From: a virus
Reading direction: 5' to 3' (one strand)
DNA: 47,699 bases
IMG/VR virus record: IMGVR_UViG_3300018411_000031
Span: 1-47,699 of that record
Below are positions 7,448 to 39,200 of the stretch, in pieces (the first letter of the stretch is position 1; each line of letters begins with the position of its first letter). A program made the translations under genes and the position numbers. The notes under the pieces are model-generated. The model was not told where the DNA came from. It was given only the letters and a program-made list of their open reading frames with translations, and made no database searches.

Positions 7448-8997
7448 GTCGCTACCTCCAATTCCTTTGGTGCTTCGATGTTGGCTTTGAGGATGCACTC
7501 GATCATGTCGGGTGGGACGCTGTTTCCACACATGCGGACCTGCGCGACCTTCGTGAATTTCTTCTCTGCGTATCGTCCGGTGTTTTCGTCAATGAAAAGT
7601 CCACGGTCGATGATGTAGTCTTTGGGGAATCCCATAGCTCTGTATAGCTCGTGCGGCTGAAGCATTCTGTAGCCGATGTCACATAGGGCCCATAGTTCGC
7701 CGTGTATCTTGACGACAACGAGCCCAAAGCGATCTTTGGAGGTGATGGTGTGCAGCGGTTCTTTGAGGCTGATGGATCCGTTTCCAGTGCCGTAGTACTT
7801 GGTGAGGAATGCGTAACAGGCGGCATGATGATTACCTCCGGCACTAATGGTGTGCAGTGGCTCGCGCATGTCGTGGCCGATATTGCCGTTTCGCATTTTA
7901 CAGATAAAGGCTGAGACTAGGCCAGTCTTGCCCATGCCTCCGGGCATGACGGTCGGGAATGGCTGCATGACGTCTTGTCCGATGGACTGGCCAAAGTACC
8001 GGGTGAGGAATACTGAGCACCTGGCGAAGTGTCCGCCTTTGACGGACGAGACTTGCGTGCGTAGTGGCTCTTTTGCGGACCAACAGCGGGCGCTCGATGA
8101 ATTGGCATTCTCGGTGATGAAGTCGATCTGAAGATTGCTATTTGGAACGATGAAGGGATCCGGATTGTTGAGCACGAAATCGACAGTGCCTTTGGCTATG
8201 CGATTGTTGGATGCCTCAGCGTATGGCTTTGGACGATCGAAGATGGAAGGGCAGGGGATGCTGAAGTCGATGCACTCCCATGCTTCGCGGTATCGTGCGC
8301 TCTTCGACTTTGCGACTTTGGGGGAGAAGTGTGTTTGCTTTGGCCACTGAATCGGTTTTCCGTCGCGACGGGCTACCAGGAACAAACGTTTCCGGGTTGT
8401 TGGTACACCAAACTCACAAGCTCGGAGTGGTTTCCAGTCGACACTGTAGCCGCGTCGACGGAGTGCACCGACGAAGCATTTGAAGAACCAGCCGGATCGT
8501 GCCGGGTTTGGCCGGTTTATCTTGAGCTTCTTTTTGGGGTAGAGTCGCTGTAGCTTGTTTAAGAATGCTTCGTTTCGGATCAGTGGGCCCCATGTGGTGA
8601 ATTCGACGACGTTCTCAAGTGTAATGATCTCCGGGGCGGTTTCGTCGACCCAGTGGATAACGGACCATGCGAGACCGCGTATTTTCTTATCCTTCGGAGT
8701 GTCCGCGGCCGCATTGCTGAAATGTGTGCAATCGGGGGATGCGTGAAGGTGACGTACTCGTTTTCCTTTGGTCGCTGTCTTGGGATCGATAACAAAGACG
8801 CTCTCGGTATAGTGCTTCGTCTGAGGGTGATTCATACGATGCATCGCGATGGCTTCAGCGTTATGGTTGATCGCAATGTCAACGTTTCGGCCAAAGGCTT
8901 TCTCAGTTCCAGTGGATGCACCGCCACCACCGGCGAAGAGATCGACAAGCAATCCCTCATCCGGATTGAGTTTCAGGTTTAATTGTGGGCTGATCAC
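7444..8997 (-). CDS. DNA (cytosine-5) methyltransferase
   Basis: A 517-aa C5-cytosine methyltransferase when started at GTG 8997, which overlaps the upstream stop (GTGA). Motif I is DLFAGGGG (19-26), and motif VI is LENV with Glu128. The catalytic loop reads SPDCTHFS, with Cys90 as probable nucleophile where most relatives have PPCQ. Motifs IX and X near the C terminus are MGFPKDYII and GNSVPP. The variable target-recognition region contains repeated HTISAGG/HTITSKD-like segments. No cognate restriction enzyme is adjacent, so it is an orphan methylase, typically used by phages to hide their DNA from host restriction. An upstream ATG at 9072 would only add residues lying over the neighbouring gene. 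Confidence 0.93.
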   Translation of the reverse strand: MISPQLNLKLNPDEGLLVDLFAGGGGASTGTEKAFGRNVDIAINHNAEAIAMHRMNHPQTKHYTESVFVIDPKTATKGKRVRHLHASPDCTHFSNAAADTPKDKKIRGLAWSVIHWVDETAPEIITLENVVEFTTWGPLIRNEAFLNKLQRLYPKKKLKINRPNPARSGWFFKCFVGALRRRGYSVDWKPLRACEFGVPTTRKRLFLVARRDGKPIQWPKQTHFSPKVAKSKSARYREAWECIDFSIPCPSIFDRPKPYAEASNNRIAKGTVDFVLNNPDPFIVPNSNLQIDFITENANSSSARCWSAKEPLRTQVSSVKGGHFARCSVFLTRYFGQSIGQDVMQPFPTVMPGGMGKTGLVSAFICKMRNGNIGHDMREPLHTISAGGNHHAACYAFLTKYYGTGNGSISLKEPLHTITSKDRFGLVVVKIHGELWALCDIGYRMLQPHELYRAMGFPKDYIIDRGLFIDENTGRYAEKKFTKVAQVRMCGNSVPPDMIECILKANIEAPKELEVAT

Positions 8998-10076
8998 TTG
9001 GAAACCTCCGGGAATTCGTTGTGAATCTGACCGTCCAGAGTGCGTCCGGCGGCTTTCTTGCCCGATTTCCAAATAACTGATGTTCCTTTTTCCATGCGCT
9101 CTACGAAACAGCCTTCCTCGTTTATGGCTCGCATCTTAGTCACTTCCGAAAGAGGCAAAGGATTGTCTTTTGAGACAGGGCAATATTCCCCCCACTGCTT
9201 GAAGAGGAACGGCACGCGAGCCGCCTGACACTGATCGCGTAGGGACCGTGCCCAATCGGGATGCATCGGGCGTGCGTTATTGCCGGATTCGCCTCCGCAG
9301 ATTACCCAGTGGATATGAGGAGCAAAGACACTGGCCCTGTTGAGTGAATTCATTGTGACAATAGGATCTGACTCGTTATAGCCATGCCCTTGACCTGTCG
9401 GAATTTGCGTTAAATCAACAGGCCCCAGCATCGGCTCGACGCTCAGGAATCGCACACGGGCGGGAATCTTCAGCAACTCGGGTATGCGCTTGTCGGCAGC
9501 ATCCTGATTCTCGCAGGTGGTGCCGATCCAGACGCTATGAGGCGGGTTGCCGTGTATCCAATTATGCAGCCATGACTGCATTTCACCGCGCGGCTGATCA
9601 TTAAAATGTGACCAGTGATCGAAAATATAATCCATTGCTTCACGAAGCATCTCGATTACGTTCTCTGGTCGCTTGGTGAGCAGTAGCCAGTCAAGGTGTG
9701 GGGTTCGACGGATCAGGTCGAAGAGACGTGCGCGGATCGTCGTCAGATCGTCGTACAGCTTGTTTCCTTGGCTATCGCATACGTTACCGCCTTGGTAGTC
9801 CTCAAAGACATCAGCGAGGCTCGCACAGAACACACGCGGACGTTCTGACAGTCCTTCTGCCTGACGATTCCACTTCAGCGGTTCAGCCCACATTGATTCA
9901 CTCGCAACTATGCGCGCCGCGTTCTTGCCCCATGTTTCAATTCCGGATCCACGGGCGACACGGCTCGGGGCGCTGACTTCTGCATAGCAGTGAGCACAAC
10001 CCGGACTGACTTTAAAGCATCCGCGCCATGAGTTAAACGTATGAGTGGTCCATTCGATTTTAGAGTTTTCGGCCAT
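8994..10076 (-). CDS. DUF5131 family protein (phage Gp37/Gp68-like)
   Basis: The 360-aa protein from ATG 10076 (MAENSKIEWTTHTFN) matches the phage Gp37/Gp68 (DUF5131) family. Its hallmarks are the opening KIEWT.HTFN.W.GC, a cysteine cluster C20-x6-C27-x2-C30 (GCFKVSPGCAHCYAE) resembling a radical-SAM or Fe-S cluster loop, TKRPENV, WIGTTCENQ, RFLSVEPMLGPVDL and ICGGESGNNARPMHPDW. The biochemical function of the family is not established; the cysteines imply a metal cluster. It is followed directly by the methyltransferase with a GTGA overlap. An upstream in-frame extension to 10226 would run into the preceding gene and is disfavoured. Confidence 0.9.
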   Translation of the reverse strand: MAENSKIEWTTHTFNSWRGCFKVSPGCAHCYAEVSAPSRVARGSGIETWGKNAARIVASESMWAEPLKWNRQAEGLSERPRVFCASLADVFEDYQGGNVCDSQGNKLYDDLTTIRARLFDLIRRTPHLDWLLLTKRPENVIEMLREAMDYIFDHWSHFNDQPRGEMQSWLHNWIHGNPPHSVWIGTTCENQDAADKRIPELLKIPARVRFLSVEPMLGPVDLTQIPTGQGHGYNESDPIVTMNSLNRASVFAPHIHWVICGGESGNNARPMHPDWARSLRDQCQAARVPFLFKQWGEYCPVSKDNPLPLSEVTKMRAINEEGCFVERMEKGTSVIWKSGKKAAGRTLDGQIHNEFPEVSK

Positions 10077-10104
10077 TGTTTTCTGTCGGTTGGTGGTTGA
10101 TATT

Positions 10105-10524
10105 TTAGGCCCAAGACTTCCAGCACATGAGCGGCTTTTCCCAGACGTTGATCTGGAACGCATTAGGGTCTTTGGATTGACCGCTGATGTAGTATTTCTT
10201 CCCTTCTCGAAACGCTTGTGGATCAATTACCGACCAATTAGGGTAATCCATTTGAATCACGATCGCATGAAAGCCACCGGGAACATTAAGGCTTGGTACG
10301 CTCACTATAAAATCTCCGACTGGCGGAAGATTGTTTGAGTCGAATTGAGCACTTTGGAATCCGTAATCCTGAAGGGCCCTGCGTAGCGTTAGATCCCACA
10401 TACCAGTTCTCTCTTCGCCGTACTTTTCGATGATTTCCCGAACAGGAACGTCGACGATCATCGCTAGACACGCGTGGACGCAGGTGAAATCTGAGGGTTG
10501 TTGTTGGACTCTAATTTGATTCAT
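10105..10524 (-). CDS. C39-like papain-fold cysteine protease domain protein
   Basis: A 139-aa single-domain protein from ATG 10524, coupled to the DUF1643 gene by an ATGA overlap. QQQPSDFTCVHACLAMI resembles the catalytic Cys box of C39/papain-like peptidases (Cys15). GGFHAIVIQ supplies His86 and WSVIDPQ supplies Asp101, completing a possible Cys-His-Asp triad. No signal peptide or ABC-transporter domain is present, so it acts in the cytoplasm, possibly as a protease or deamidase-like modifier of a host or phage protein. The triad is seen; the substrate is unknown. Confidence 0.78.
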   Translation of the reverse strand: MNQIRVQQQPSDFTCVHACLAMIVDVPVREIIEKYGEERTGMWDLTLRRALQDYGFQSAQFDSNNLPPVGDFIVSVPSLNVPGGFHAIVIQMDYPNWSVIDPQAFREGKKYYISGQSKDPNAFQINVWEKPLMCWKSWA

Positions 10525-11030
10525 AGTGCTTGTGGTTTGAGTGTCTTCTTCAGGTAAAGTGGGTGGCGTGGATTGCCGTCTTGAGTGAAAGCGAGTCCGT
10601 GTAGCTGGATATGGTTTGAGAGCATCAGGCTCATCACTTCTTCGTCGCGTCGCAGGTGAGTCCCATGGCTTCCCCATGCGGCCACGACGATCCCAGCTTG
10701 CTTGGCGGTTTTCAGGATATGCCAGTCATTAGAGTCTCCGATTGGATCCGGTTGAGCCTTCATGTCCTTGGGGTCTGTCGCTCTCCATGCAAAGAGGTTG
10801 AGCATGACAAACGCATCATATCCCCAGTCCTTCGCGTAGTTGATGCACCGGCGCACTGTTGGGTCGTCATTCGTCTCGTCCGCCGTACTGGGGTTCAAGC
10901 AAATGAAGGCGCAGTATTTTCCGGGGCCCCAGCGACGCCAGAGCGTGTATCGGTATTTACGGCACTTGGAGAACTCAGCAATCGGAGTGTCGCCCATGTG
11001 GAGCTCGCTCTGGGTATTGTCTTGGCTCAC
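10521..11030 (-). CDS. DUF1643 domain protein
   Basis: This 169-aa protein matches the DUF1643 family found in phages and mobile elements. Recognisable blocks are YRYTLWRRWGP, FICLNPSTADETNDDPT, RRCINYAKDWGYDAFVMLNLFAWRATDP and GIVVAAWGSHG. The start is a GTG at 11030 overlapping the preceding stop (GTGA). The family's molecular role is not known to me with certainty; its alpha/beta pattern suggests a nucleotide- or base-related enzyme fold. It sits inside the accessory block with the ASCH-like and C39-like genes. Confidence 0.9.
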   Translation of the reverse strand: MSQDNTQSELHMGDTPIAEFSKCRKYRYTLWRRWGPGKYCAFICLNPSTADETNDDPTVRRCINYAKDWGYDAFVMLNLFAWRATDPKDMKAQPDPIGDSNDWHILKTAKQAGIVVAAWGSHGTHLRRDEEVMSLMLSNHIQLHGLAFTQDGNPRHPLYLKKTLKPQAL

Positions 11031-11704
11031 GACGACACCTCCAATCTCTCAAGCGAGTATGCCCAGACGTAGGGGTTTGCCTCCCACGCGTATTTGCCTT
11101 TCTCGCGATTAGCGTTGATAGAGTCCCAGAGTTGTCCAAAGCAGTAGCGGACTCCTACATCTGTATTCTCAGAAGGGATTCCTTCGGCCCGACAGTCATT
11201 AGGGCTGATGTCCTGAAGGCGCTCGATGCGAACGTCAGTCACGCGTGCAAACTCACGGGCGAATACCTTGCGCATAAAGCGAGCTGTTGTCGGAGCATAT
11301 GGAGCGCCTTCCCCTTTGCGTGCGAGTAGCTTTTTAACGTCCTCAACCAAGAGGTCGATGTTGCGCTCAACGTTCGGACGGTCGTATCGTTCCCATAAGT
11401 ACTGCACATCGGCCATTCCTCCGTGAGCATCATAGGAAAACGTCTCGATCTGAACCGGCTCGGTCAGATACACGATGTCACCGACTTGGTAACGTGGCTT
11501 TACTGCAGATCCATTAACCCCATAATCTCCATACCAAACAACGGATGTCGAATTACCCCACGTATCTTTGTCGATACAGATCGGATGATCGTTGATAGAC
11601 TCAATGCGTCGCGTCTGCCGCTTCCGGAGTTCCACGAAGGCGCGGTACATTTCCTCTTTGAAGCCAAGAGGCTTGGCTGTTTTTAGTAATTTGGCGCGGT
11701 TCAT
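11027..11704 (-). CDS. ASCH-like phage protein
   Basis: The 225-aa product resembles the phage ASCH-related proteins that begin with a F..EM..A....RKTQTRR block. Here this reads GFKEEMYRAFVELRKRQTRR, followed by YQVGDIVYLTEP. The C-terminal part has VTDVRIERLQDISPNDCRAEGI, FGQLWDSINANR and ANPYVWAYSLERLE. ASCH domains have a PUA-like beta-barrel and are proposed to bind RNA or act on modified nucleosides. It starts at ATG 11704 (ATGA overlap). Phage homologues are often annotated only as morphogenetic or hypothetical; the exact role is open. Confidence 0.82.
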   Translation of the reverse strand: MNRAKLLKTAKPLGFKEEMYRAFVELRKRQTRRIESINDHPICIDKDTWGNSTSVVWYGDYGVNGSAVKPRYQVGDIVYLTEPVQIETFSYDAHGGMADVQYLWERYDRPNVERNIDLLVEDVKKLLARKGEGAPYAPTTARFMRKVFAREFARVTDVRIERLQDISPNDCRAEGIPSENTDVGVRYCFGQLWDSINANREKGKYAWEANPYVWAYSLERLEVSS

Positions 11705-12273: not shown

Positions 12274-12482
12274 TTGCGTTTCCCTTCTTTCGACGCCCTC
12301 GCTTTCAAGTGGGCTAGGTAGTAGTTGTTGAATATTTTGAGATGCTTCTGGCGGATATACGTGCCGACAGACTTCAAGTGCGGACGCTCTTTGATTTCAT
12401 CCTTAAGCATGTATGGAACGGGGATCTTCCCGTCGCTGATGTCCCGCTCGAAGTCGGTTTTGTTGTATTTGGCTCTAGGCAT
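12270..12482 (-). CDS. Small basic hypothetical protein
   Basis: A 70-aa, strongly basic protein (PRAKYNKTDFERDISDGK... ending ASKEGKRK). Its start codon shares a base with the stop of the preceding gene (TAATG), showing translational coupling. The central KSVGTYIRQKHLKIFNNYYLAHL is helical. The charge suggests nucleic-acid or ribosome binding, but no motif proves this. Confidence 0.65.
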   Translation of the reverse strand: MPRAKYNKTDFERDISDGKIPVPYMLKDEIKERPHLKSVGTYIRQKHLKIFNNYYLAHLKARASKEGKRK

Positions 12483-12922
12483 TAGAACGGGACGACTTCA
12501 GTTAATTTTGGGCGCTTTGGTAGGCTTTCCAGTTTGGAAAGCTCATGACGACTACTGGAATTTAAGAGCGCTGTGACCGCCTTCATGTACTCGACAGACT
12601 TCTGTTTTTCTTCGTGCAGCTTTTGATACCGAGCAGGTTCAGGCTTTTTATCGAGTTCCCGTTCTATATCTTTCAACGCGTACTCAACCCAACAAAGTTC
12701 TACATCAAGCTTAGACTTGTTCTCCAAGTAGCGACGCTCCTGCATCACTTGGTTTTCACAGTAGAGTTGGCACTTGTTCGCGATGTTTCCCGCATTTGCG
12801 CCTTCCGGAACTTCCGCAGTAATGCTGCAGCTAAACCGATGATTCGCAAAACTTTCGTTGGGATCATTGAACTGATGTGCGTAACTGACTGTTACCTCTT
12901 TAATTTTGATGTCTTCTGTCAT
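12482..12922 (-). CDS. Unknown protein, paralogue of 16176-16625, SSB-like -VVPF terminus
   Basis: This 146-aa protein is a clear paralogue of the one at 16176-16625. Both open with E.TVS..HQFNDP.E.FANHR..ISITA (here EVTVSYAHQFNDPNESFANH), have a charged helical middle, and end in hydrophobic-Pro-Phe (here TEVVPF). The terminal Pro-Phe matches the last residues of SSB, which in bacteria dock partner proteins, although these paralogues lack a strongly acidic run before it. No family is recognised. It is the first gene downstream of the tmRNA and the 309-bp non-coding stretch. A role with the phage SSB/recombination machinery is inference. Confidence 0.75.
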   Translation of the reverse strand: MTEDIKIKEVTVSYAHQFNDPNESFANHRFSCSITAEVPEGANAGNIANKCQLYCENQVMQERRYLENKSKLDVELCWVEYALKDIERELDKKPEPARYQKLHEEKQKSVEYMKAVTALLNSSSRHELSKLESLPKRPKLTEVVPF

Positions 12923-13231: not shown

Positions 13232-13632
13232 TGGTGGACCTGGGGGGAATCGAACCCCCGTCCTCCGCTACTTACTCTCGACCTTCGTTCACATGCTTAG
13301 TCTTTTGATTGATTCTCCTGTAAGTCGAAGAGGATCGGACGATCCCATCACTAGGGCTGTTTGGATACAGCCTCCACCACTCGGGGTAGTGACTCCCGAG
13401 ATACTTATGGTTTGTCCCCTGAACCTGCCCAGAGACTTAGGCGTAGCGGTTACGCTACCAATGCTTCTTCGGCGAGCAGTGCTTCGCCTTCGGCTGCGAG
13501 AGCCTTCATTTCTGCATTGAGGTCAACGAGGTTATCGTTGCCATTTAGTTGTGTTGATCCGTTTCACGTCTGTGAATCATCGACGGCATGCAGGGCGAGC
13601 CTTGGTAACGGAGTCGAATCCGTGTCAGGCCC
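13232..13632 (-). ncRNA. Phage-encoded transfer-messenger RNA (tmRNA)
   Basis: A complete one-piece tmRNA of 401 nt that rescues stalled ribosomes and tags their peptides for proteolysis. The 5' end GGGCCUG pairs with CAGGUCC before the encoded CCA at 13232-13234, forming a 7-bp acceptor stem that includes a G3-U70 wobble, the alanyl-tRNA synthetase identity element. The 5' tmRNA consensus ...GGATTCGACTCCG and a T-arm of GGGGG TTCGATT CCCCC are present. An internal tag reading frame sits where expected after UAAAU. No smpB gene is in the window, so host SmpB would be needed. It lies inside the early operon, between the RyR-domain gene and a small gene, not at a prophage end. tmRNAs are known in few phages. 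Confidence 0.93.
13450..13542 (-). other. tmRNA tag-peptide reading frame (30 codons + UAA)
   Basis: The resume codon is read as GGC at 13542, directly after UAAAU; this is comparable to UAGUC before GCA in E. coli tmRNA. The frame gives a 30-residue tag starting GNDNLVDLNAEM and ending LAEEALVA, then UAA at 13450-13452. The start resembles ANDN/ANDE tags, and the hydrophobic ALVA end fits ClpXP-type degrons. At 30 codons it is much longer than the usual roughly 10-codon tags. The frame one base later reaches a stop after 11 codons and lacks a degron-like end, so it is rejected. Confidence 0.82.
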
Positions 13633-13637
13633 TATAT

Positions 13638-13723
13638 AAAAGAACAAAAAGTGAATGGAGAGACTGGGCGGGACACTGGTTGATCCCTTCAGCTTGGCGC
13701 TTACTGTCCGCGCCCATCTCTCC
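13638..13723 (-). terminator. Long hairpin plus T-tract between the RyR-domain gene and the tmRNA
   Basis: Arms 13657-13675 and 13705-13723 form an imperfect stem of about 18 bp (GGAGAGA, GGGCG and GGACA paired with TGTCC, CGCCC and TCTCTCC). On the minus transcript it is followed after a few bases by CACTTTTTGTTCTTTT. This looks like a rho-independent terminator or an RNA processing stem separating the upstream mRNA from the tmRNA. It could also protect the tmRNA precursor. A TATATA immediately before the tmRNA 5' end is too close to act as its -10 box. Confidence 0.6.
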
Positions 13724-13745: not shown

Positions 13746-14786
13746 CTAGTTGGCTGCGTTCATGCCCTTGTCGGAATCCGAATCGGAGGACTCTACACCG
13801 GTTTCTGTTGGCTCGGGCTTCGACGTGTCGTCGGTCTGACTGGCTTTGAGCGCACGAAGCACTTCGAGATAGCCGTGGACGACGTGGATAAAGAGCGTAT
13901 CCTTATTCTTGTGGTCTTGGCTCAATTCAGAGTATGGCACATAGCAAGGATGCTCTTTCTTGGAAGGGTCCTTAACCGGTCCGTACTTCCAGCCATCGGC
14001 TTCTTTGTCCTTCAGCCAGTTCTCGTGGCTTGCAGATGCAGAGGCGCCGGGATTGTCGACGTGGAACTTGACGCCATTGATGGCTGATTCCTTTTGCCAA
14101 TCAGGAGCACCGGACCATGCAGGCTGAGAATCGTCTCCAATGGACTCACAATAGCGCTTGTTCGCTTCATGACACTGCTCTGCAACATGAGCTACGGCAT
14201 TCTCGTAGGTCATGGCTTTGACAGCATCCGTTCCAATGCCAGTCAATGGATGAAACGGATTCGGATCGAACAATTGGCCACTGGACTCGACATCAGCTGC
14301 GTCTGGAATACCGAGAGCAGTCTTGGCGACGGAAACCCAAGCGTCGCTTTGAAGCTTCTTGTCTGGATCTGCGCGGAAGTCTTCCCATACTGGAAGTGGA
14401 TCGCCGTTGAAAGCTTTGCCACCAACGCGCTTGCAGTAGTCTTCGTAGAGAATCCCGGCGAATTGCTCGATGTCGACACTGTCGGATTCTGCACCGACGA
14501 TCAGTGAGTAACCGTCTTCAAATGCGTCGGCAGGTGAGAATGATTTGTATCCGTCCTCATACTCGACGTAGTATCCGCCATTCTGTGGCTTGTGATTGTC
14601 GTAGTACTTCCCGGACAATGTCATTGGTGGGTACTGCTGGCCTTGAAATTCTTCAAAGGCTAGGATGCAGGATGTGCACTTACCTGAGAACATGTGTGGC
14701 TTGACCAGACGAATTTTCAAAGCACGCACGATTTTGTGGCACTTGTATTTTGGCATTTCTGCCAGTACTTCATTTGTATTTCCCAT
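13746..14786 (-). CDS. RyR-domain phage protein
   Basis: A 346-aa protein with two recognisable parts. The N-terminal domain (about 11-95) has PKYKCHKIVRALKIR and the block GGYYVEYEDGYKSFSPADAF, common in phage proteins of this type. Residues about 197-310 form a RyR domain: HEANKRYCESIGDDSQPAW, DWQKESAINGVKFHVDNPG, SHENWLKDKEADGWKYGPVKD and HPCYVPYSEL. The tail after 312 is acidic and Ser-rich. RyR domains, named from ryanodine receptors, are proposed to bind small nucleotide-like ligands and in phages may be linked to host sensing or defence evasion. It is the last gene before the tmRNA. Confidence 0.88.
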   Translation of the reverse strand: MGNTNEVLAEMPKYKCHKIVRALKIRLVKPHMFSGKCTSCILAFEEFQGQQYPPMTLSGKYYDNHKPQNGGYYVEYEDGYKSFSPADAFEDGYSLIVGAESDSVDIEQFAGILYEDYCKRVGGKAFNGDPLPVWEDFRADPDKKLQSDAWVSVAKTALGIPDAADVESSGQLFDPNPFHPLTGIGTDAVKAMTYENAVAHVAEQCHEANKRYCESIGDDSQPAWSGAPDWQKESAINGVKFHVDNPGASASASHENWLKDKEADGWKYGPVKDPSKKEHPCYVPYSELSQDHKNKDTLFIHVVHGYLEVLRALKASQTDDTSKPEPTETGVESSDSDSDKGMNAAN

Positions 14787-14822
14787 GATTGAGTATTGGT
14801 TGATGTTTAGAGAAATTGGTGG

Positions 14823-16163
14823 CTATAGATCGATGTCGTCGTCATCGATGAGGGTCGCTTGACGTTCGGGTGCCGGTTCTTCGGTGGGGGATTGGTCTTG
14901 TTCGACTTCTTTGCCATCGACGTAGGCAATGGTCCCATCGACGATGTGGATGCCTTGCTCTCCTGGTATTTCCTGAAAGCGCTCTACCCAAAGCTGGAAC
15001 CCGGTCTCTTCGGCCATCTCAGCGATGCGCTTGAAAATGGCTGAACCAATGAGTGATGCATCGCGAATGATGAGAAGCTTGAGCTTGGAGGTGTCACGCA
15101 TGGCGATACGTGCACTGATTTCCATGGTTCTGGCTGTGGACTGCTGTTCGAGGGGCTGGCCTTCGAAGATCACACCTTCGTCATTGACGAATAAGTCGGG
15201 TATGCCGAAGTCGGCTTTTTCGAGCATCTTCTTCTTCACTCGAAGGTGGTCATCAATCGCTATCTGCGCTTTTTTGGCAGCTTTGTCTGCGCGATTGAGT
15301 GCATCCATGGATGCGTCGAAGTTGAGCTTGCTGCGGACGTTCTTGTTGAGCTCTTCGATGGAATTGAGCTGTTCCTTCTTCTTCGCGATCTCATCCTCAG
15401 ATGGTGCGTCAGGAAGCTCGTGCTTCTCGATACGTGCAGCGAGTGCCTTCTCTCGGTCGCGCCAGTTTTCCAGCGCTTCTTCGAGTTCTTTGATCTTGGT
15501 CTTTGTTTGCTCGAGATTGGAGATGTCCTCTTCGTGTTCGGTCTGAGCAGTTTGACGGGCCTTACGCTTGTCCTGCATCTTCTGAATCTCTTCGATGAGG
15601 TCGGAAGCAGACGTTTCCTGATTCGGAGTCTCTTTGGGGACGGTGGGAAGCTGTTTGTGTGAGGCCTGACGCTCTTTGAACAGACGATTTGCTTCTGTTC
15701 GGACGTTATAGAGCTCTTTATATCGTGCTTCCCATTGTGTGAGGTCGATGCCGGCGATGCGCAAAAGAGTTTCACGCTGGTCCTTCGGCTTCATGCGTGC
15801 AAAGGCAAGGGGATCGAGGGTCAGTGAGCTGAATAGTCCGTCGAGGATCTTCTGGGGACTGCGAAGCTTCTTGCCGTCTTTGTCTTTGACTGAGATATAG
15901 CTCGCCTTGGTGGTGAAAGTGCGCTCGACGATAATGTCTGTCAGTTCGTCATCGATAGTGATCTCAATGGAGATGGAGGCCTTTTGTTGGCCTTCGCGGA
16001 TTGGTTGGCTGGGAAGCTCGCCTTTGAGAGCCATCCAAATGCAATCGAGAACGGTGGATTTACCGGCTTCGTTATCGCCAGTCAGGATGATGGGCTTTCC
16101 GTCTGGACGGATGTGGACCGCTTCGAGCTTCTTGACGTTCTGTGCGCTTAATTGTGTGATCAT
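14823..16163 (-). CDS. SbcC/RecF-like SMC-family ATPase
   Basis: The 446-aa protein is a phage recombination-type ATPase resembling RecF, RecN and SbcC heads. Walker A is GDNEAGKST (29-37, Lys35). A long coiled coil runs from about 141 to 315 and contains the apical region. The signature-like LEQQSTARTMEISARIA (338-354) is followed by a Walker B-like LKLLIIRD at 361-368. It is shorter than full SbcC, so it is a minimal SMC-like protein. The C terminus is acidic (LIDDDDIDL), reminiscent of SSB tails. It probably works with RecT, the Fe-S nuclease and SSB on DNA ends. No SbcD-type nuclease partner is seen nearby. Confidence 0.88.
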   Translation of the reverse strand: MITQLSAQNVKKLEAVHIRPDGKPIILTGDNEAGKSTVLDCIWMALKGELPSQPIREGQQKASISIEITIDDELTDIIVERTFTTKASYISVKDKDGKKLRSPQKILDGLFSSLTLDPLAFARMKPKDQRETLLRIAGIDLTQWEARYKELYNVRTEANRLFKERQASHKQLPTVPKETPNQETSASDLIEEIQKMQDKRKARQTAQTEHEEDISNLEQTKTKIKELEEALENWRDREKALAARIEKHELPDAPSEDEIAKKKEQLNSIEELNKNVRSKLNFDASMDALNRADKAAKKAQIAIDDHLRVKKKMLEKADFGIPDLFVNDEGVIFEGQPLEQQSTARTMEISARIAMRDTSKLKLLIIRDASLIGSAIFKRIAEMAEETGFQLWVERFQEIPGEQGIHIVDGTIAYVDGKEVEQDQSPTEEPAPERQATLIDDDDIDL

Positions 16164-22120: not shown

Positions 22121-22197
22121 TGGGTGCAGGAACGGGATTCGAACCCGTGACCTTCTGGTTATGAGCCAGACGCGCTACCGGACTGCGCTATCCTGCA
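22121..22197 (-). tRNA. tRNA with anticodon CAU (elongator Met-like)
   Basis: A complete 77-nt cloverleaf with encoded CCA. The acceptor stem is TGCAGGA/TCCTGCA, the D-stem GCGC/GCGC, the anticodon arm TCTGG CTCATAA CCAGA and the T-arm ACGGG TTCGAAT CCCGT. The anticodon is CAT. It lacks the three consecutive G-C pairs of initiator tRNA and has a paired 1-72 position, so it is elongator Met or a lysidine-type Ile. The discriminator is C73 instead of the usual A73. It lies between RecT and the first operon gene, on the same strand. Confidence 0.93.
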
Positions 22198-22202
22198 TTC
22201 TG

Positions 22203-22541
22203 TTATGAATTCTTTTTGTTCGGGGTTGCGGCCATCGGCTCGGCTACTTCTTCGATTGAAGAAATTTCCCCCATCATGACTGATTTCAGTTCCTCGGATG
22301 CGGCGGTCAGACGTGGGTCTTTCCCGATGTCGTCCAAAAGTGTGTAGAGCTTGCGGCGAATCTCTATACGACTTGCGTCACTTGCCCCAAAGTGGGCGAC
22401 AGGTTTCGAAGCGGCTGTACGACGGAATCCTAGAAATTCCTCGATAATCAGTGCCTCGGATGCCTCTGCGGGCGATCCATGTTGGCGACGGTTGCGGACA
22501 ATCCGTCCAACTTGGTCAAGTAAATCAATGCGATGGTTCAT
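22203..22541 (-). CDS. Hypothetical protein, first gene of the left early operon
   Basis: A 112-aa helical, charged protein (MNHRIDLLDQVGRIVRNRRQ...; ISSIEEVAEPMAATPNKKNS at the end). It is divergently arranged with the repressor and ends 5 bp before the tRNA. No family is recognised. First genes of lytic operons facing a repressor are often Cro-like or small anti-host proteins, but no HTH is apparent here. Confidence 0.65.
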   Translation of the reverse strand: MNHRIDLLDQVGRIVRNRRQHGSPAEASEALIIEEFLGFRRTAASKPVAHFGASDASRIEIRRKLYTLLDDIGKDPRLTAASEELKSVMMGEISSIEEVAEPMAATPNKKNS

Positions 22542-22622
22542 AATTACAGAATCAGGTTTAGTAAAAATGAACCTTGCAATGCAAGCAAAAATTCGTTTTT
22601 TCTTAAATCAGATTCAAAAATT
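22542..22622. promoter_or_regulatory. Divergent control region between repressor and early operon
   Basis: This 81-bp AT-rich spacer must hold the promoters for the rightward repressor and the leftward early operon. Its centre carries a perfect palindrome TTGCA-A-TGCAA at 22574-22584, a good candidate repressor operator. On the minus strand TTGCTT and TTTACT at roughly 17-bp spacing could be -35 and -10 boxes over the palindrome, though neither is close to consensus. The 9-mer TTGCAATGC recurs at 26469-26477 in the other large control region. Confidence 0.55.
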
Positions 22623-23207
22623 ATGAATATCTTCGGAGAAACACTCAGCGACTACTTGTCGAGAAATGGCATCACACAGAGAGACTTTGCCTCAAAGGTT
22701 GGAATCTCTGCAGGCTCTATGAGTCAGATTCTATCCAGCGGGGAGGGCGGTTTCCTTCCTAAAGAAAGTCGAGCAAAAGAGATTATTGCCAAGATTGGCG
22801 ATGATGCGACTCGAGCTGCGTTAGGCCGGGCATATATTTTAACAGTCTGGGATAAACTCGGATTGTCTGATAATCCGCTAAGCGGAACGCTTGATCGTCC
22901 TGAGCACCTAAGTCAGTTTGAAAACTTTAGACCTTCACTTCAGCGTTTGCTCATAAGTTTGGGCATTGGTGCGATGGCTGATCCATTGGTTGAACAAATC
23001 CTTATTGACCAAGAGCGTTATGTCGGGAAAGAACAAGGTAGATCTGACTACACGCATAATCATCATGATCGCCTAGTTGCCGAAGATGATATTGCCGGAA
23101 CCCCGCCCCCAAAGTTGCCCCATGCCGAAGAAACAGCGCTCCAACCAGGAACACGACTCCCGACAAATTCTGATACAATGGGAGACGGAAAGGGAGAAAG
23201 CGCTTAA
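22623..23207 (+). CDS. CI-like HTH repressor
   Basis: A 194-aa transcription regulator. The N terminus (about 5-60) is an XRE/lambda-type HTH: LSDYLSRNGITQRDFASKVG then ISAGSMSQILSSGEG. The rest is not a recognisable LexA-type S24 peptidase domain, so it may be a non-cleaved repressor. The C terminus has DDIAGTPPPKLP (157-162 IAGTPP) and PGTRLPTN (175-182), both echoed in the 74-aa gene at 20778. It reads opposite to the early operon over an 81-bp spacer, the classic lysogeny switch arrangement. Binding to the TTGCAATGCAA palindrome is inferred. Confidence 0.85.
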   Translation: MNIFGETLSDYLSRNGITQRDFASKVGISAGSMSQILSSGEGGFLPKESRAKEIIAKIGDDATRAALGRAYILTVWDKLGLSDNPLSGTLDRPEHLSQFENFRPSLQRLLISLGIGAMADPLVEQILIDQERYVGKEQGRSDYTHNHHDRLVAEDDIAGTPPPKLPHAEETALQPGTRLPTNSDTMGDGKGESA

Positions 23208-29443: not shown

Positions 29444-30271
29444 ATGGCAAATTACGCTGAGCAGTCTAGCGCACGAAATAAGCGTGCAGGCGGAACAGGA
29501 AGTGCATCCGGAGATTCATCTGCACGCGAAAATCGAATTGGTAATCGTGATCGTGTTCCAGGTGAAAGTCAGACGAGTGCTGACACTCGTAATGCTCAAT
29601 CAAAGACTCAACCGAGTCATCGTGTTCCTTTTTCAGTTCGAGAAGCGCAATGGCGTCGTCAAGGTTATGGCGGGGCCTCCAAGCGCATGGCGCAGTTCCA
29701 AGCGAGTTCGATGGGGCAGTCTATGGGAATGGGTGGGACAGCATCGGATCCATACGGAAAAGCAGAGAGCGGTCAGAAGCCCGATCCACTTCCTTCACCA
29801 GAATCCAATGAAGGTGGAAATACCGAAGCTCAACCACAGAGCGGGGTATTGCGTAAGGCTCTGGGTGCGGTCGCCCGCGGTGCGAGTCAACTAATGGCTC
29901 CATTGCTTCCGGATCCGAATAGCCCCCAAGCGAACTTCATGAATCGGTCGATGTCTGGCGGACCACTTTCGAACAAAGAAATCGCAGATGCGCAGGCCTA
30001 CGCAAAAAGCATGGGCACCACTTTCGATCCTCGTACTGGTTATGATCGGTCAAATTTTATGGGTGAGAAATCTCCCGAATTACCATCGGTCAACATGACA
30101 CCGAAACCGAAGAGTACTCGCGTTCGAACCTTTAGCGATCCTGCCGCTGCAATCGCACAAAATAAGCAGGATCCAGCTGGTCCAAAATTACTTAGCGATG
30201 GGGTTGCGCTCCCAGTGCGCAACAAACCCGAAAAACTGAAAATCCCAAGTCTCCCTGACCTGAATTTCTAA
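29444..30271 (+). CDS. Unknown late protein, Gly/Ser/Pro-rich
   Basis: A 275-aa protein from ATG 29444 (MANYAEQSSARNKRAGGTGS). It is low in hydrophobics and rich in Ser, Gly, Pro, Gln and Lys, hence probably disordered, with a more ordered middle (RKALGAVARGASQLMAPLLP). Its stop overlaps the start of the giant gene (TAATG). Its location between TerL and the giant ejection-type gene suggests a virion or scaffold component, but no family is recognised. Confidence 0.7.
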   Translation: MANYAEQSSARNKRAGGTGSASGDSSARENRIGNRDRVPGESQTSADTRNAQSKTQPSHRVPFSVREAQWRRQGYGGASKRMAQFQASSMGQSMGMGGTASDPYGKAESGQKPDPLPSPESNEGGNTEAQPQSGVLRKALGAVARGASQLMAPLLPDPNSPQANFMNRSMSGGPLSNKEIADAQAYAKSMGTTFDPRTGYDRSNFMGEKSPELPSVNMTPKPKSTRVRTFSDPAAAIAQNKQDPAGPKLLSDGVALPVRNKPEKLKIPSLPDLNF

Positions 30272-33200
30272 TGAATTCCAATTTTTTTGATCCATTCACC
30301 CAGCCGTCCAAGCGCGCTCAGAAGAACGCATTCAAGCAAGAAGAAGAAACACGGGAAAATCTCTACCGCTCTACGGGGGTTGACTTCGATAAAGACGTCG
30401 ATGGTCGAGTCTATCCGACAAAAACCGAGAACAACCGGCGTCTCGGGTTGGACGCTCCGGGCATGTTTGAAGACGGACGTGTGGACCTCGATGGCCGACG
30501 AGCCCTTGATTCACGGATTCAAGGGATTCCACAGACTTCTAAAATGATCGACGACGCCAAAAAGCGTCGATCAGAAATCTCCTCGATTTCCAAAGGCTAT
30601 CGGGCTGAACTCGATAACTTCGATCGCTCTCATGGCGTGAAAGTATCTCAGGCCGATGAATGGGATGACGTGGCCGGAGAATTCAAGAAGGTCGAGCGAG
30701 TTGACTTTGATGGCATAGTCGATGATACGCGCAGAGATGCTTTACTTCAGTCTCGCAAGTACATTCAGGAAGAACTGAACCGATCAGATACGGCATTGAA
30801 TGACATTGATGTTGAAATCGGTCGACACAATCTTGCTCGTCAAAAGTACATTCAGAACCAGCGCAGTAAGTTGGGAGCAAAGCCCGGTGACATTGCAGAT
30901 CTGGATGATTCCCCAGAAATGGAGGTCGGAAGTCCCGAATGGTATGATGAGATTGATGCGCATGGTGGTATTGTTCGTGGGGGTAAAAAGCGCGCTGCCG
31001 ATTTGCCTTCTCCATACCAAGGCGAGATTGTCGGTCCGAATGATCCTATTCGCCCAGGAGTTGAGGGCCATCATCGTGTTGTTGAAGGCATGGCTGATAA
31101 TGTGACTGCAAAAGTCACAGATATTCCAAATCAAGCCCCGGTCGAAATGGCCAATGAGTCTGGACCACTTCCAGAGGCGACTGATTCTCAATCGAATCTT
31201 TCAGAGCTGTCTGGATCTTACCGCCGATTCATGGAGACTCGGGATGACCAGAATCGTACCCCGAGTGCATTTGATCAGGCCGTTTGGATGAGCGACCGTA
31301 TCGAACAGCTGCAGTCGCTCCGCGAAAAGGCCAGCGATAAAGGTGCTGAGTCATTTGATTTAGAGGAAGCAGCATTGCTTAAAGAGCAAGAGGCGATCAT
31401 TTCAGAAATGACACCTTACCAGCTCGCTCGATTAGATGACAAAACCCGTGATCCCCGGACGAAAGAGATCATCAAGAACTTTGGCGCACGCTTTGTTGAT
31501 TCAGTAGGTACAGGCCTTACAGACATGGCTGAGTTTGCCAACCGGCAGTATATCCGGTTTCACCCACTTGGATACCTTGGTGCCAAACTCAGAAATGAGA
31601 CGGCTACCGACAACACTGTGTCTCGATTCTTAGGCGCGATGCGTGAAGTTGCCGACGAGTGGGGCCCTGATGTTCCAGAGGAAGTGAGTGAAAAGCTCTT
31701 ATCCGGAAAGGGAACACTCTTTGCTGAAGGCCTTGGATCTGCTGTCTCATTCATGTTGCCAGGAATGGCCGTTTCTAAAATGGGCAAGCTCTCGAAGTTG
31801 AGTCCGAAGGCGATGAAACTTCTGACCTATGGAAGTACTGCTGTTGCTGGTGCCGCGGTGAGTGGTAATGCCCTGCGTCGGGAAGTGGTCCAGAATAATG
31901 AGCCGATTCTGAACTACATGACTGAAATGCTTCAGTCCGGCGAAATCACCCAAGAGGCATACGACAAGGTCACTGAGAACATGCAGAATCAGGCCGCATA
32001 CGCGGAAGCCTTGGGTGCAGCTTTTGGTCTTACTGAAGCGATTCCACTTGGCAATATGCTTAACCGCGCAAATCGACTGGGCGGGACAGCCTTAACAGAA
32101 ACATTGTTGAAGCGACTTCTGTCCGGGACCATGGGCGAAACCTTGGAAGCCGCAGGCCAAAAGACTTTAGGTAAAGGAGTCAAGGCGCTTGCTTCTGGAA
32201 TGGAAGAAGCGACCGAAGAAGCGCTTCAAGAGTATTATCAGACTTTGGCAGAGAATGCTGCAGCATCCGGCTGGGGAATCTTCTCCGACGAAATGGCTTG
32301 GGATAAGCAGCGAGGTCTACTCGATGGTGCGGTCGAAGGCCTTTCGACTGGTGGTGCAGTCGGTTTCACTCTTTCGATGCTGGTTTCAGCAATGCCCGGT
32401 CGCCAGCGTCGTGAGTTCGGTGAGACTCTTCGTAGTGAGCTCGCATTCCAACTGGCTCAGCAAGAAGCCATGAAAACGGCCGGTGAAGATTGGCGACAAA
32501 TGAATGCCGAAGATCGGGCCGCTGCGATCGACCAGCAACTCTCTGAGATGAGCCCGGATGATTTGGCCAGCATGAACGAGCAAGTCGATAAGCTACTTGA
32601 TACGCCATCTCATCCATCTAGCGGAATTCGACCTTTCAACGTCGTCCATGAATCCGATCAATATGAAGATGGTTCGCGCGAAATGACAATCTGGGCAAAG
32701 TCTATGGATGATGCTTTAGACCAGCTCAACGAAATGGGGGTGAACGACAATGTCACTGTTGATTCTGCCGAAGCTGGTGGAGACATTGAGATCGTGAATA
32801 CAACTGTATTCACCGGGAAAGACGGGGATGAAATCACCCTTGAGGGGAATCCAGTAGAAGCACGAAAGAAATTGCCAAATGGATTTGAAGTGAAATCCGT
32901 TCGCCCAGGCGAACCCATTGAAAAGGAGGTGACTACCAATGAAGCCAATACCGATAATCAAGAAGGAGAAGTTCCTTCCGAGACCGGAGGACAACCTTCT
33001 GAAGTTTCAAGTTCCATTGACAATGACTCCCAACGAGATCCGGAGACTGTTCCTGATGCTGGTACTTCAGAAGAAGAGACGGAACTAGATACTCCAAAGA
33101 CTCGAAAGCTGAAAGAGATCAAGGAGACATTCAAGCTCAGTGATCGTGGGACGAAGGCGCTCGATCAGATTGCCGACGCCGTCGAGCGAGTCGTGGGTGA

Positions 33201-36200
33201 GGATGCCTTTGACCGGGTGAAAATCGACATCTTGTCAGCAAATGAGATGCCTGCCGGCTTTGAAGAAACAGCGGGTGCATGGGATCGTCGTAACAGTCGG
33301 TTGATTCTGAATCGTGATGTTGAGGACAATAAAGGCGATGAAGCCATCACAACTATTTTCCACGAGTCTGGACACGTCATCGCGGAAGCAATGGACGACT
33401 TCGTTTATGAGCAATGGTCAGGGCTGACTCCTGAGCAACGCGAAGCGGCCAAACTCGAATACAATCCCGACGATACACGGACCGACTCCGAATTGCTCGC
33501 ATCGAAGAATGCGCGTCAAGAGTGGTTCAATTTTCAACTGTTCCGTGTGGCGAAAGAAGGGCCCAAAGAGTATAAGAAGAGCTCCGATCTCAGTGACACA
33601 TTGAAGGACAAAGTCATTCAAGTTTGGAATGAGATCCGTGAAATCATTACCAAATGGATTGGAGATCCAAGCCTCAGCACTCAACAGCTTGATTCGCGAA
33701 TCCGGGAAATCCTCTTTGGCGAAACCGAACAAGATACGGACACTGCCGATTTGCCCGGTGAAGAAACAAACCTTTCACAACGGGATGCCAGGTCGTCTGG
33801 TTCAGACGTAGGGGTAGCGTCTGTAGATGGGCAACCATCCATCCCGACCAAAATTGAGCCGACTGGGAATTCGTTCAAAGCGAAGACTCCTGAGAATAAT
33901 TCTCGGACAGTCTCCGGACGCTGGGCGATCGTCGATGCTGCGGAGATTAAAACGTCACAGGATGAGGGATATGATCAATCGCTTCAGCCGCGAAATCGCA
34001 ACCGTCGCGCCAGCCAAGACCAAGTGGCAGAGATTGCTCAAGGCCTCGATCCCGAACGAATTGCAGACAGCACTACCACCGACTTAGGTGCGCCCATTGT
34101 CACAACCGATGGAATGGTGATCAGTGGAAACGGACGCACTTCAGCTGTTCGCCAAGCTTACCAGAATCGGGACCGAAAGGCAGGTCAGGCATACCGTGAA
34201 TGGCTCAAGACAGATGCTCAAAAATTTGGAATCGATAGTTCTGTGGCCGATTCCATGGATCAACCGATGCTGGTTCGAGTCATCGAAGACTTTGGCGGCA
34301 TGACTCCAAAGGAATTTGCTCGAGTATCGAATCAAGACCAAACCATGGGAATGAGTATTGCGGAAAAGGCTTCTGTTGATGCTCAAATCATCTTGGAGAG
34401 TCCGGCGCTACGCGAACTGTTCCGGCCAAACGAGTCTGCGGGAGTGATGGCTTCAACCAACCGTGAATTCCTGAATCAGTTCATTGAGTCGACCGGTGAC
34501 CGCGTGAACCTTATTTCTTCCGACGGCTCTGGGTATCCTCCGGAATTGGAACCGCGATTAAAGAGAGCACTGATCGCTGCAGCTGTTGGACCAAACGACA
34601 CTCAGTTGATTACGGCTTTGACCGAAGAAACCGAAGGCATTCGTCGTGTGGCCAATGCGGTCGCAGAAGTGGCTCCTCAGTTGGTCGAGTTTCAAGGCAC
34701 TGAGTTCGATGTTTCCAATGAGCTTGCAGATGCGCTTCGTAACTATGTTTCCATTGTTCGCGAAGGTAGCACTGTGGACCAATTCCTTTCTCAAGTAAGC
34801 TTGTTCGGGGATGAAGTTCGAACCGCTGAGTCAGATGAAATCCTCCGTGTTTTTGGTAAGCATGGAAAGCGATCAGCCCGGAAGATCATCGAGTTTTTCC
34901 AGAGCTATATTGACCAAGCAAGTAACGTCGATACGACAACCCAAGGTCTGAATCTTGGTATTGACGAAACGACAAAGTCAGACATACTTTCCAATAGTGA
35001 GCAATCCGAAGAAAGTCAGCCCGAGCAAACCGATCTCCCGCAAGGAGAATCTGAGTCGTCCGCCCAAAACGCGGAAGGGCAGTCTGTTGCGCCAAGCCGC
35101 CAAGAGCGTGGGCGTCTAAATCGAAAGCCAAAGTCTGCTGAAAAAGAAGCAGCGATTGATCAACTCTCTGATGCCTTCGATGGCCTTGAGGATTTGGCCG
35201 GTACGCCGTCACTTAATAGTAACGAGCTTAATGAATTTGAGAAACTAGCATCTAAAAATGATTCTGGAGAAAAACTAACTGAATCTGAAAATAATCGATT
35301 TTTGGAGTTAGAAGATCGATTAGTAGAGTCTCAAAAAGGTGGTAAACTCGGAAGCAATCAATACAGCTTAGCAGAGGCGGTTGAAGACATTCGTGCAGGC
35401 CGCACAACATCGCCACTAAAGGCAATTAACGAGGCAGTGCGTGATGCTATTAAACATCGAGAAGATGTTAAGCGTAGGGCAGAAGCGAGAAAAAGCGACC
35501 GTCAACGCGGGAAATTGTCAATTCTTGATAACATAACCCGAGCGGCTAAGCAGGGGAAAGTCCCAAAAGATACAGCACAAGCTCTAACCTCTTTTGTGAA
35601 CTCGCTAGAAGACCGATTTATCGACGACGTAGCTATTTCATTGCGAGCCAGAGGGCAGGCTCAGGGGACTTTCGATTTTGCGGAAAGCCTGGTGACGATC
35701 TTCCGTAATTCAAACGACATGACGCACACGGGAATCCATGAGTTTTGGCATGCACTTTCGCGTCTAATTCCAGCATCCGAAGTCACTAAGATAGCGAATG
35801 ACTATGCAAATTCGCTAGTAGAGTATTTGAAACAAGACCCGGAGTTTTACGCTTTTGTTGGTCGCGAAACTCTATCGACAAGGCAATACGAGGAACTTCT
35901 TAAATTTTCATCAAAGGAATCTCTTGAAGATCGATTATCTCCTTTGCGCAATACATCTGGAAACATCGAAGCATATCGAATCCGGTTCAATGCGGAAAAT
36001 TATCGTTATCACTCTCTCGACGAATGGATTGCTGAGAAGCTGACCGATGAAGTTTTGAATCGTGGTGATGGCCTTAAGCCAAACACCATATTTAGCAAGG
36101 TCGTTGTCGCAATTCGAAGGTTCCTACGAATTGTGAAGCGGCACCTTGGGCAAAATCCTTACCACAATGTCGTAGACGCAGTGTTCAACCGTCCAGATAC

Positions 36201-39200
36201 ACTGGGATTTGCTCGATTCGGTCCAGTCGCTCAAGCGACTCCATTGTATGAGCCGAATATGTCACGCCGTTCAACGGTTAGAAATCAATCAACATCCGAT
36301 GAGGGGGAACTCGCCTTAGCGCCTACAGGTGTTTTTTCAAAGACGTTTCCGAAGTCTCAACGAAAAGCATTCCTTGCGGCGGCAGAATCCATGGCAGATG
36401 CGGGGATCAATACTCCTGAAGAACTTGCGGAGATCCTGAGTGATCGATTCGGAGGCAAGTTTAACGGATATGCCCAGTCTCTTTGGAATATGATAGCTTC
36501 CTTTGACGATGTAGCGGCATCGAACTTAACTCCTGACTGGAAGGCGACTTTTGCCGGACTTGACAATTCAAGTGATTCGGCGGATATTGACTCTAATGTA
36601 TCAAATCGAGAGCAGCCTTTGGAACGAGATAGCGATTCAGGAGACGTTGAAGACGCCTCAGATGCAAGTCGCGTTTCAGCTCGACGAGGATCAGATCAAT
36701 CAACTGATGATACAAACTCGGAAGCACCTGGAACAGAAGGGCGTGAGCCCGAGAGTGGCCGGGTCGTATCTGGAAGTGGCTCCACTGCTGATGGAGAACA
36801 AAGCGATTCAGTCGTTTCTACGGAAGACTCAGAAGATGGAACTCGCTCTCGCTCTTCCGGACGTTCCGGATCTTCAAGCCGCCGTGGAACTGATGGCTCG
36901 CGATCGGATGCTAAACAAAGCGGAGAAGGACGAACTGACGCAGTTGCTCGATCCAACAACGAAGCTGGGCAAGTCCGCACTGAGGTCGTGGTCGATCCCG
37001 ACGTTGATCAGCGCTTAGCCTCTCAAAAGCAAGCGGACCAGAAGTCTCACAAGGTAAAGTGGGGTGATTTACAGAGCGTCAAAGACGTTGCGCCGCTACT
37101 TCTCCATGATCAGCACATTGATGTTGCTAATGCCGAGAATCGTTTCTTTGGAAATGCCAAGCCGAGTGAATTTAATCCGAATGGTAAAGGCATGCTCTTC
37201 ACCAATGGTACCGGCACTGGAAAGACATTTGTCGGATTAGGGACTGCCAAGCGCTTTGTTTCGGCAGGTAAGACGGAGATCCTATTTATTGTCCCGACTG
37301 GTAAAGTCACGGATTGGATTGAAGATGCCAAATTGATTGGACTTGAGGCCTCGACAGTGCCCGACACCAAAAGCAGTGGAAAGGGCGTCACAGTCGTCGG
37401 ATTTGAGAACTTCCGTCAGAATCCACATTTGTGGGCCCGTAAGTATGATTTGGTCATTAGTGACGAGGCGCACAAGTTAATGTCGAACAAGGACGGCGAA
37501 GTGAACGCGACACTTCAGGCATTCCGCATTGTCGCTGGCCACAAGAACAATCATCGAGAGTCCGGTGCCTATCGGAATCCTGAGTGGTTCGAGTTGAAGC
37601 TCGAGCACGAGGCAAAGCTGAAACCACTTGAGAAGAAGCTTAAGCTCGCGACTTCGAATAAAGATCAGGCTCGCCAGCAGAAAATCAGAACTCAGATCAA
37701 CCAACTTCAATGGCAATTCAATGAGCGTACAAGCGCAATGAATGCTCAGAACGAGGAAGACGGTAAAGGCATCTATTCAGAGACAAAAACGCTTTTCCTC
37801 AGCGCAACACCTTTCGCCTATCACAAGGCTCTTGAGTGGGCGAATGGATACATCATTGATTGGGACTTCAATCACCAAGGGACTGATCAAGTGATGATTG
37901 GTGATTCTCGTCAGAGTCCTATGGCTGACTTCTTTGTGCGTCATCTTGGTTACCGCATTCGCTACCACAAACTCACTGAACCCGATGCTCAAGTCGATGG
38001 CAGTCTCATGGAGCGCGAACTGTCGAAGAAATTGACCGATGCTGGCGCAATGAGCGGGCGAATGATCAATTTAGACCATGACTATTCCCGGGACTTCGTT
38101 CTGGTCGATTCTAAATTGGGCGCTGAGCTCGATCGTGGAGTCGGTATTCTGCAGGGATACATCGACCGTGATGAAAACGAATTCCATGTGCTGCCAATGA
38201 TGGTTAAGCAGAAGTTTAACTACGTGAAGGCGGCACAGATGCTTGAATCAATCAAAGCAGTCGAAGCTGTGAACCGAGCAAAGAAGCACGTTGCACTTGG
38301 TCGTAAGGTCGTCGTCTTTCATAGCTACTTGGGATCCACGCCGACGCATCCATTTGAATTCAATATGGGTGACATTATGGCTATCCCTGATCCAGAATTG
38401 AGAGGCGCCGCTGAAGCCGAGATCAACAAATTCAATGAGCGATACCCGGAGCTCGTGAATCTCGATTTCAGTGAAGTGGCGAACATCCTTGATATGTTCC
38501 GGAATGAATTCGGGGAATCGGTGACATTCTTCAATGGGCAGTCCAAGAGCACTCGTCAGACAGGGATGGAACTCTTCAATCAAAGTGGATCCGGAGTCGA
38601 CATTATCGTTGCTCAGGTTGATGCCGCTCAGGAGGGATTGAGTCTTCACGATACTGATGGAAAGCATCAACGGGTATTGATCAATGTTGGTATTCCAGTG
38701 AAGCCGGTTACCGTTGCCCAGGAGGAAGGGCGCATCTATCGAGTTGGCCTTAAGAGCGACGCCGCTTACGAGAATCTTGTACTGCACACAAACATGGAAC
38801 GCTCGATGTTCGGTGAGAAGGCATCACAAAGAAGTGGTACAGTCGAGAATCTGGCCATGGGGGATCTGTCTCGAAATCTGAAAGAAGTACTTCGAGAGGG
38901 ATACATGAATGCCCGATTCTTTGAGCCAAATCTGGAACAAGGCAAAGGTGGCGTTGCATCTGATCGACGCATTCAGACCACCTCTGACTTTGATCGCGCA
39001 AAAACTTACTACTATGGCCGACTCAAGCGGAATTCGAAGACGAAAGCCCTCGAAGGCAAAGACTATTTTGCGACTCCTGAACCGATCGGTTACAAGATGG
39101 TAGAATGGGCAGGAGCGAGACCGGGTGAATCCATGCTCGAACCATCCGCCGGCCATGGCGCGATTGGACGCTTCTTCCCTGACACTACGAGCAATACTTT

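Follow-up and report, generated by a model that had tools for sequence, protein, structure and literature searches.

The window analysed here, a 47,699-base IMG/VR record classed as virus, carries a tmRNA-like sequence between positions 13,232 and 13,632. The locus raises the question of whether this phage has a tmRNA of its own and, if so, what it would do with a tag of 30 residues. We find a real, complete and phage-borne tmRNA whose tag is long but has precedent; both features are known from other phages.

A complete tmRNA on the minus strand

A search of the window against Rfam RF00023 (cmscan) returns a single tmRNA at 119.2 bits (gathering cut-off, 47 bits) and E 4e-46, aligned over positions 1–374 of the 374-position model. 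ARAGORN places both ends of the gene at the same bases and reads a tag, GNDNLVDLNAEMKALAAEGEALLAEEALVA, of 30 codons followed by a stop. The first-pass annotation had described a complete tmRNA with these ends and had named a covariance model as the check to run; the strand, minus, was absent from its account. The acceptor stem that it had described, with G3-U70 and an encoded CCA, is borne out as seven pairs (GC, GC, GU, CG, CG, UA and GC) followed by encoded ACCA, and the tRNA-like domain contains both the alanine identity pair G3-U70 and the CCA end. The body is divergent, with a mean posterior accuracy of only 0.65 in the covariance alignment. The features of the locus are as follows.

13632..13232, minus: one-piece tmRNA gene (ssrA), 401 nt including encoded CCA (Rfam RF00023 and ARAGORN)
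13555..13585, minus: pseudoknot 1 (PK1), RNA 48-51/63-66 and 54-59/73-78 (stem enumeration)
13450..13542, minus: tag reading frame from the resume codon GGC through the stop codon TAA, RNA 91-183 (ARAGORN)
13453..13512, minus: three tandem tag units, EMKALAA / EGEALLA / EEALVA (sequence)
13443..13458, minus: helix 5 hairpin GUAGCG-UAAC-CGCUAC, whose loop contains the tag stop codon, RNA 175-190
13414..13442, minus: candidate pseudoknot 2 (PK2), RNA 191-194/207-210 and 197-202/214-219 (stem enumeration)
13374..13400, minus: candidate pseudoknot 3 (PK3), RNA 233-238/248-253 and 241-246/254-259 (stem enumeration)
13657..13723, minus: strong hairpin with a U-rich tract after it, in the gap from the upstream RyR-domain gene to the tmRNA (folding energy −36.5 kcal/mol, z −4.4)

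Starting from the 5′ side, PK1 is clear, with stems CGUC/GACG and UGAUUC/GGAUCA. The helix 5 hairpin is also present in the minimum-energy fold. PK2 and PK3 have matching complementary stems and PK4 has no confident assignment, all by stem enumeration on this one sequence.

The tag frame and its ending

An open frame of 30 codons is by itself weak evidence, expected by chance about one time in four (an estimate, at 61/64 per codon). We accept the tag frame because of its resume site, the stop codon in helix 5 and the ALVA end. The resume site reads UA-AAU-GGC, keeping U at −5 and A at −4, the equivalents of U85 and A86 of Escherichia coli, where mutating A86 leaves little or no function and where the −1 triplet AAU, the one present here, retains 90% activity (PMC2481249).

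The tag thus delimited, 30 residues with a hydrophobic C terminus ending in ALVA, is the internal frame noted from the letters alone and recovered independently by ARAGORN. Its description as unusually long holds against the commonest length of 10 residues (PMC11915505); it is not exceptional within the recorded range of 8–35 (PMC8012679; PMC2862035) or beside named phages with 25, 26 and 29. The last 20 residues can be read as three tandem units resembling E-x-[KE]-A-L-x-A. When the terminal ALxA is held fixed, 0.19% of composition-preserving shuffles contain three such motifs, a figure for a motif picked after the sequence had been viewed. The tag region also folds better than its shuffles (z −2.4).

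In our reading, the tag frame was lengthened in this lineage and a standard degron was retained at the C terminus of the long tag. The further suggestion that proteases might read such a tag differently is unsupported: of the ssrA variants that were tried in Salmonella, the one ending in LVA was degraded fastest, and in E. coli the efficiency of degradation falls in the order LVA > AAV > ASV (PMC11003136). A more ambitious reading, which we regard as speculative and rather unlikely, is that phages repeatedly evolve long Ala/Glu-rich tags lacking in host tmRNAs, here through a tandem degron-like unit ending in ALxA, and that this gives the tag a phage-specific role, be it stronger or adaptor-free delivery to proteases or a safeguard should the tag frame be truncated.

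A phage gene within the early block

The window has a tyrosine integrase gene at 345-1595 on the plus strand, and with it the phage is probably temperate. From 2 to 25 kb, minus-strand genes encode replication and recombination functions (RNase H, a DnaB-like helicase, a second DNA helicase, a DNA methyltransferase, SSB, an exonuclease, RecT and RadC); the plus strand encodes the terminase, a 4167-residue polyvalent protein and the portal. The tmRNA lies inside the minus-strand early block, between an RyR-domain gene (13746-14786) and an open reading frame without assignment (12482-12922), both on the minus strand. Same-strand phage genes nearby encode RyR-domain and SbcC-like proteins (13746-16163) and members of PHROG families (8994-11704). 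The RyR domain of the adjoining protein matches PF02026 at 42.9 bits. The hairpin at 13657-13723 possibly terminates the preceding gene or serves as a processing signal, and we found no sigma-70-like promoter between 12900 and 13800.

Other genes of the window merit mention. A complete tRNA-Met(CAU) gene (22121-22197, minus) adjoins the RecT gene, and a transcriptional regulator (22533-23207, plus) amid the minus-strand early genes is placed like a lysogeny repressor. The 4167-residue frame (30271-42774, plus) has LPD38, ddrB-ParB, helicase-like and methyltransferase-like domains; this giant polyvalent phage protein may act against restriction.

This setting bears on whether the gene was recently acquired from a host, or is left over from an integration site, and has no role for the phage. 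ssrA is commonly an integration site, most viral contigs picked out by a general tmRNA pattern have the match near a contig end, like a prophage flank, and a tyrosine integrase is present; but here the tmRNA is mid-block, with the integrase about 12 kb away, and neither a 16-base copy of its 3′ end nor another att-like repeat occurs elsewhere in the window. Furthermore, the tmRNA is complete, with acceptor stem, pseudoknot and tag intact, and the tag is unlike those in contig-end flanks. We therefore consider capture without a role improbable. Its position among phage genes, with no second copy of the 3′ end in the window, makes it a phage gene as opposed to host flank; the first-pass annotation, which had called it phage-encoded and refutable if a host gene, stands on this point, as the flanking genes are phage genes and the locus is not at a prophage boundary.

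Searches with phrog_2045, the portal and the SNF2-type helicase found no close relative covering the early region. Early-gene relatives through phrog_2045 (31–39% identity) have no full tmRNA, yet share almost no other early gene with this phage. The closest portal relative (71%) is a 39-kb piece with the early region outside it, and three more distant ones (44%; 67–71 kb) have no tmRNA, but their early regions are unrelated and hence they are not a fair test of tmRNA conservation. The SNF2-type helicase scan gave no relative. Pattern scans with the resume region gave only chance matches (22 viral contigs without tmRNA and one genome contig with its own ssrA on another contig) and so no host lead. 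Matches to the terminase, portal and methyltransferase in named phages and plasmids were too distant or scattered to name a host.

Proposed function

We propose, with a probability of about 0.85, that this is a functional one-piece phage tmRNA in the early/replication block that carries out ordinary trans-translation, topping up rescue during infection. Because the tag closes with ALVA, an ending that has tested as a strong degron, we hold ordinary trans-translation relying on host SmpB to be likelier than any other function. Once expressed, the RNA would be charged with alanine by the host alanyl-tRNA synthetase and, together with host SmpB, would enter ribosomes stalled on mRNA that is broken or lacks a stop codon. 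There it would add A-GNDNLVDLNAEMKALAAEGEALLAEEALVA to the stalled protein and free the ribosome at UAA, after which the ALVA end would direct the tagged protein to ClpXP-type proteases. The phage may benefit through the added capacity for ribosome rescue; the first-pass suggestion that host tmRNA is degraded or in short supply is a conjectural reason for such a need.

The same test found no SmpB gene in the window or in nine further tmRNA phages, which fits the use of the host protein. One relative (portal 71%, terminase 73% and integrase 68% identical) has about 16 kb of extra DNA separating the integrase from the last structural gene that the two have in common, which indicates that the record is incomplete, and the absence of SmpB from the window is therefore no proof of its absence from the phage.

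Instead of topping up rescue, the phage tmRNA might compete with the host tmRNA and alter the fate of tagged proteins, which would be spared or redirected. The tag is far longer than the usual 10 residues, and phage DS6A has a tRNA-like-domain-only RNA resembling a tmRNA-inhibiting molecule (PMC4131195; PMC11915505); as opposed to such a decoy, the tmRNA here is complete and the C-terminal LVA of its tag has tested as a strong degron ending, and we judge competition very improbable. The divergent body might speak for a pseudogene or a chance resemblance to tmRNA, but either is hardly credible with an intact acceptor stem and an encoded CCA, and chance origin is already refuted by the match over the full covariance model.

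Comparison with known tmRNAs

With bacterial one-piece tmRNAs (RF00023), the phage tmRNA has in common the full-length model match, the G3-U70 acceptor stem, CCA, PK1, the resume site and helix 5 with its stop; it differs in its tag of 30 codons as opposed to the most frequent 10 (PMC11915505). The first-pass view of tmRNAs as confined to a few phages is outdated. Ten tmRNA phages were listed in 2014 (PMC4131195), and a 2021 survey of 18,146 genomes counted 402, with 133 unique structures (PMC9004378); huge phages with tmRNA and SmpB (PMC7162821) and Bradyrhizobium phages with tmRNA (PMC12656738) are also on record. Methylophage Melnitz likewise carries a phage-borne ssrA, in an isolate and with no host flank needed as explanation, but its tmRNA is two-piece (permuted) with a glutamine riboswitch, whereas the one here is one-piece and of RF00023 type (PMC9004378).

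Similar observations come from other viral contigs. Four contigs of 62–206 kb (L003, L038, L039 and L045) have a one-piece tmRNA and share the 9-residue tag GRPAVKLAA. ARAGORN makes permuted two-piece calls in many viral contigs, among them L251, L253, L262, L263, L273, L274 and L291, several with the identical predicted tag ANDNSYRMVA, and permuted calls in L254, L259 and L272 are candidates with predicted tags of 27–31 residues.

Tags of named phages have 10 residues in Enterococcus phage 113, 13 in Faust and phage G, 25 in Nappy and Tonenili, 26 in Phabba and 29 in Orchid and RobinSparkles, a series that the 30 residues here slightly extend. The long-tag actinophage tmRNAs (Tonenili/Nappy, Phabba and Orchid/RobinSparkles) are likewise one-piece, 397–434 nt long and similar in tag length, with no SmpB in those phages searched. 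However, they lie beside or among tRNA genes, as opposed to early genes, and their bodies are of CUACGCCCGUAGA or CUACGCACGUAGA type, whereas the body here is of GCAUGC/GACUAAGCAUGU type and less than 50% identical to theirs overall, no closer than to other tmRNAs. A tblastn search of phages with the tag gave no match. The C-terminal half of the tag agrees with that of Tonenili at 8 of 11 residues (AEGEALLAEEA / AEIEAFFAEEA; p 0.006, uncorrected for eight comparisons). Common ancestry with the long-tag actinophage tmRNAs is unproven, as the body type differs and only this one of the eight tag comparisons has a clearly low p, borderline after correction; given the different body types and the identity below 50%, convergence or chance is likelier than descent for the Tonenili resemblance.

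The known set thus gains a phage with a divergent one-piece tmRNA and a tag at the long end. Should long tags turn out to recur among phages, setting phage tags beside those of their hosts would be a simple means of asking what a phage gains by bringing its own ribosome rescue.
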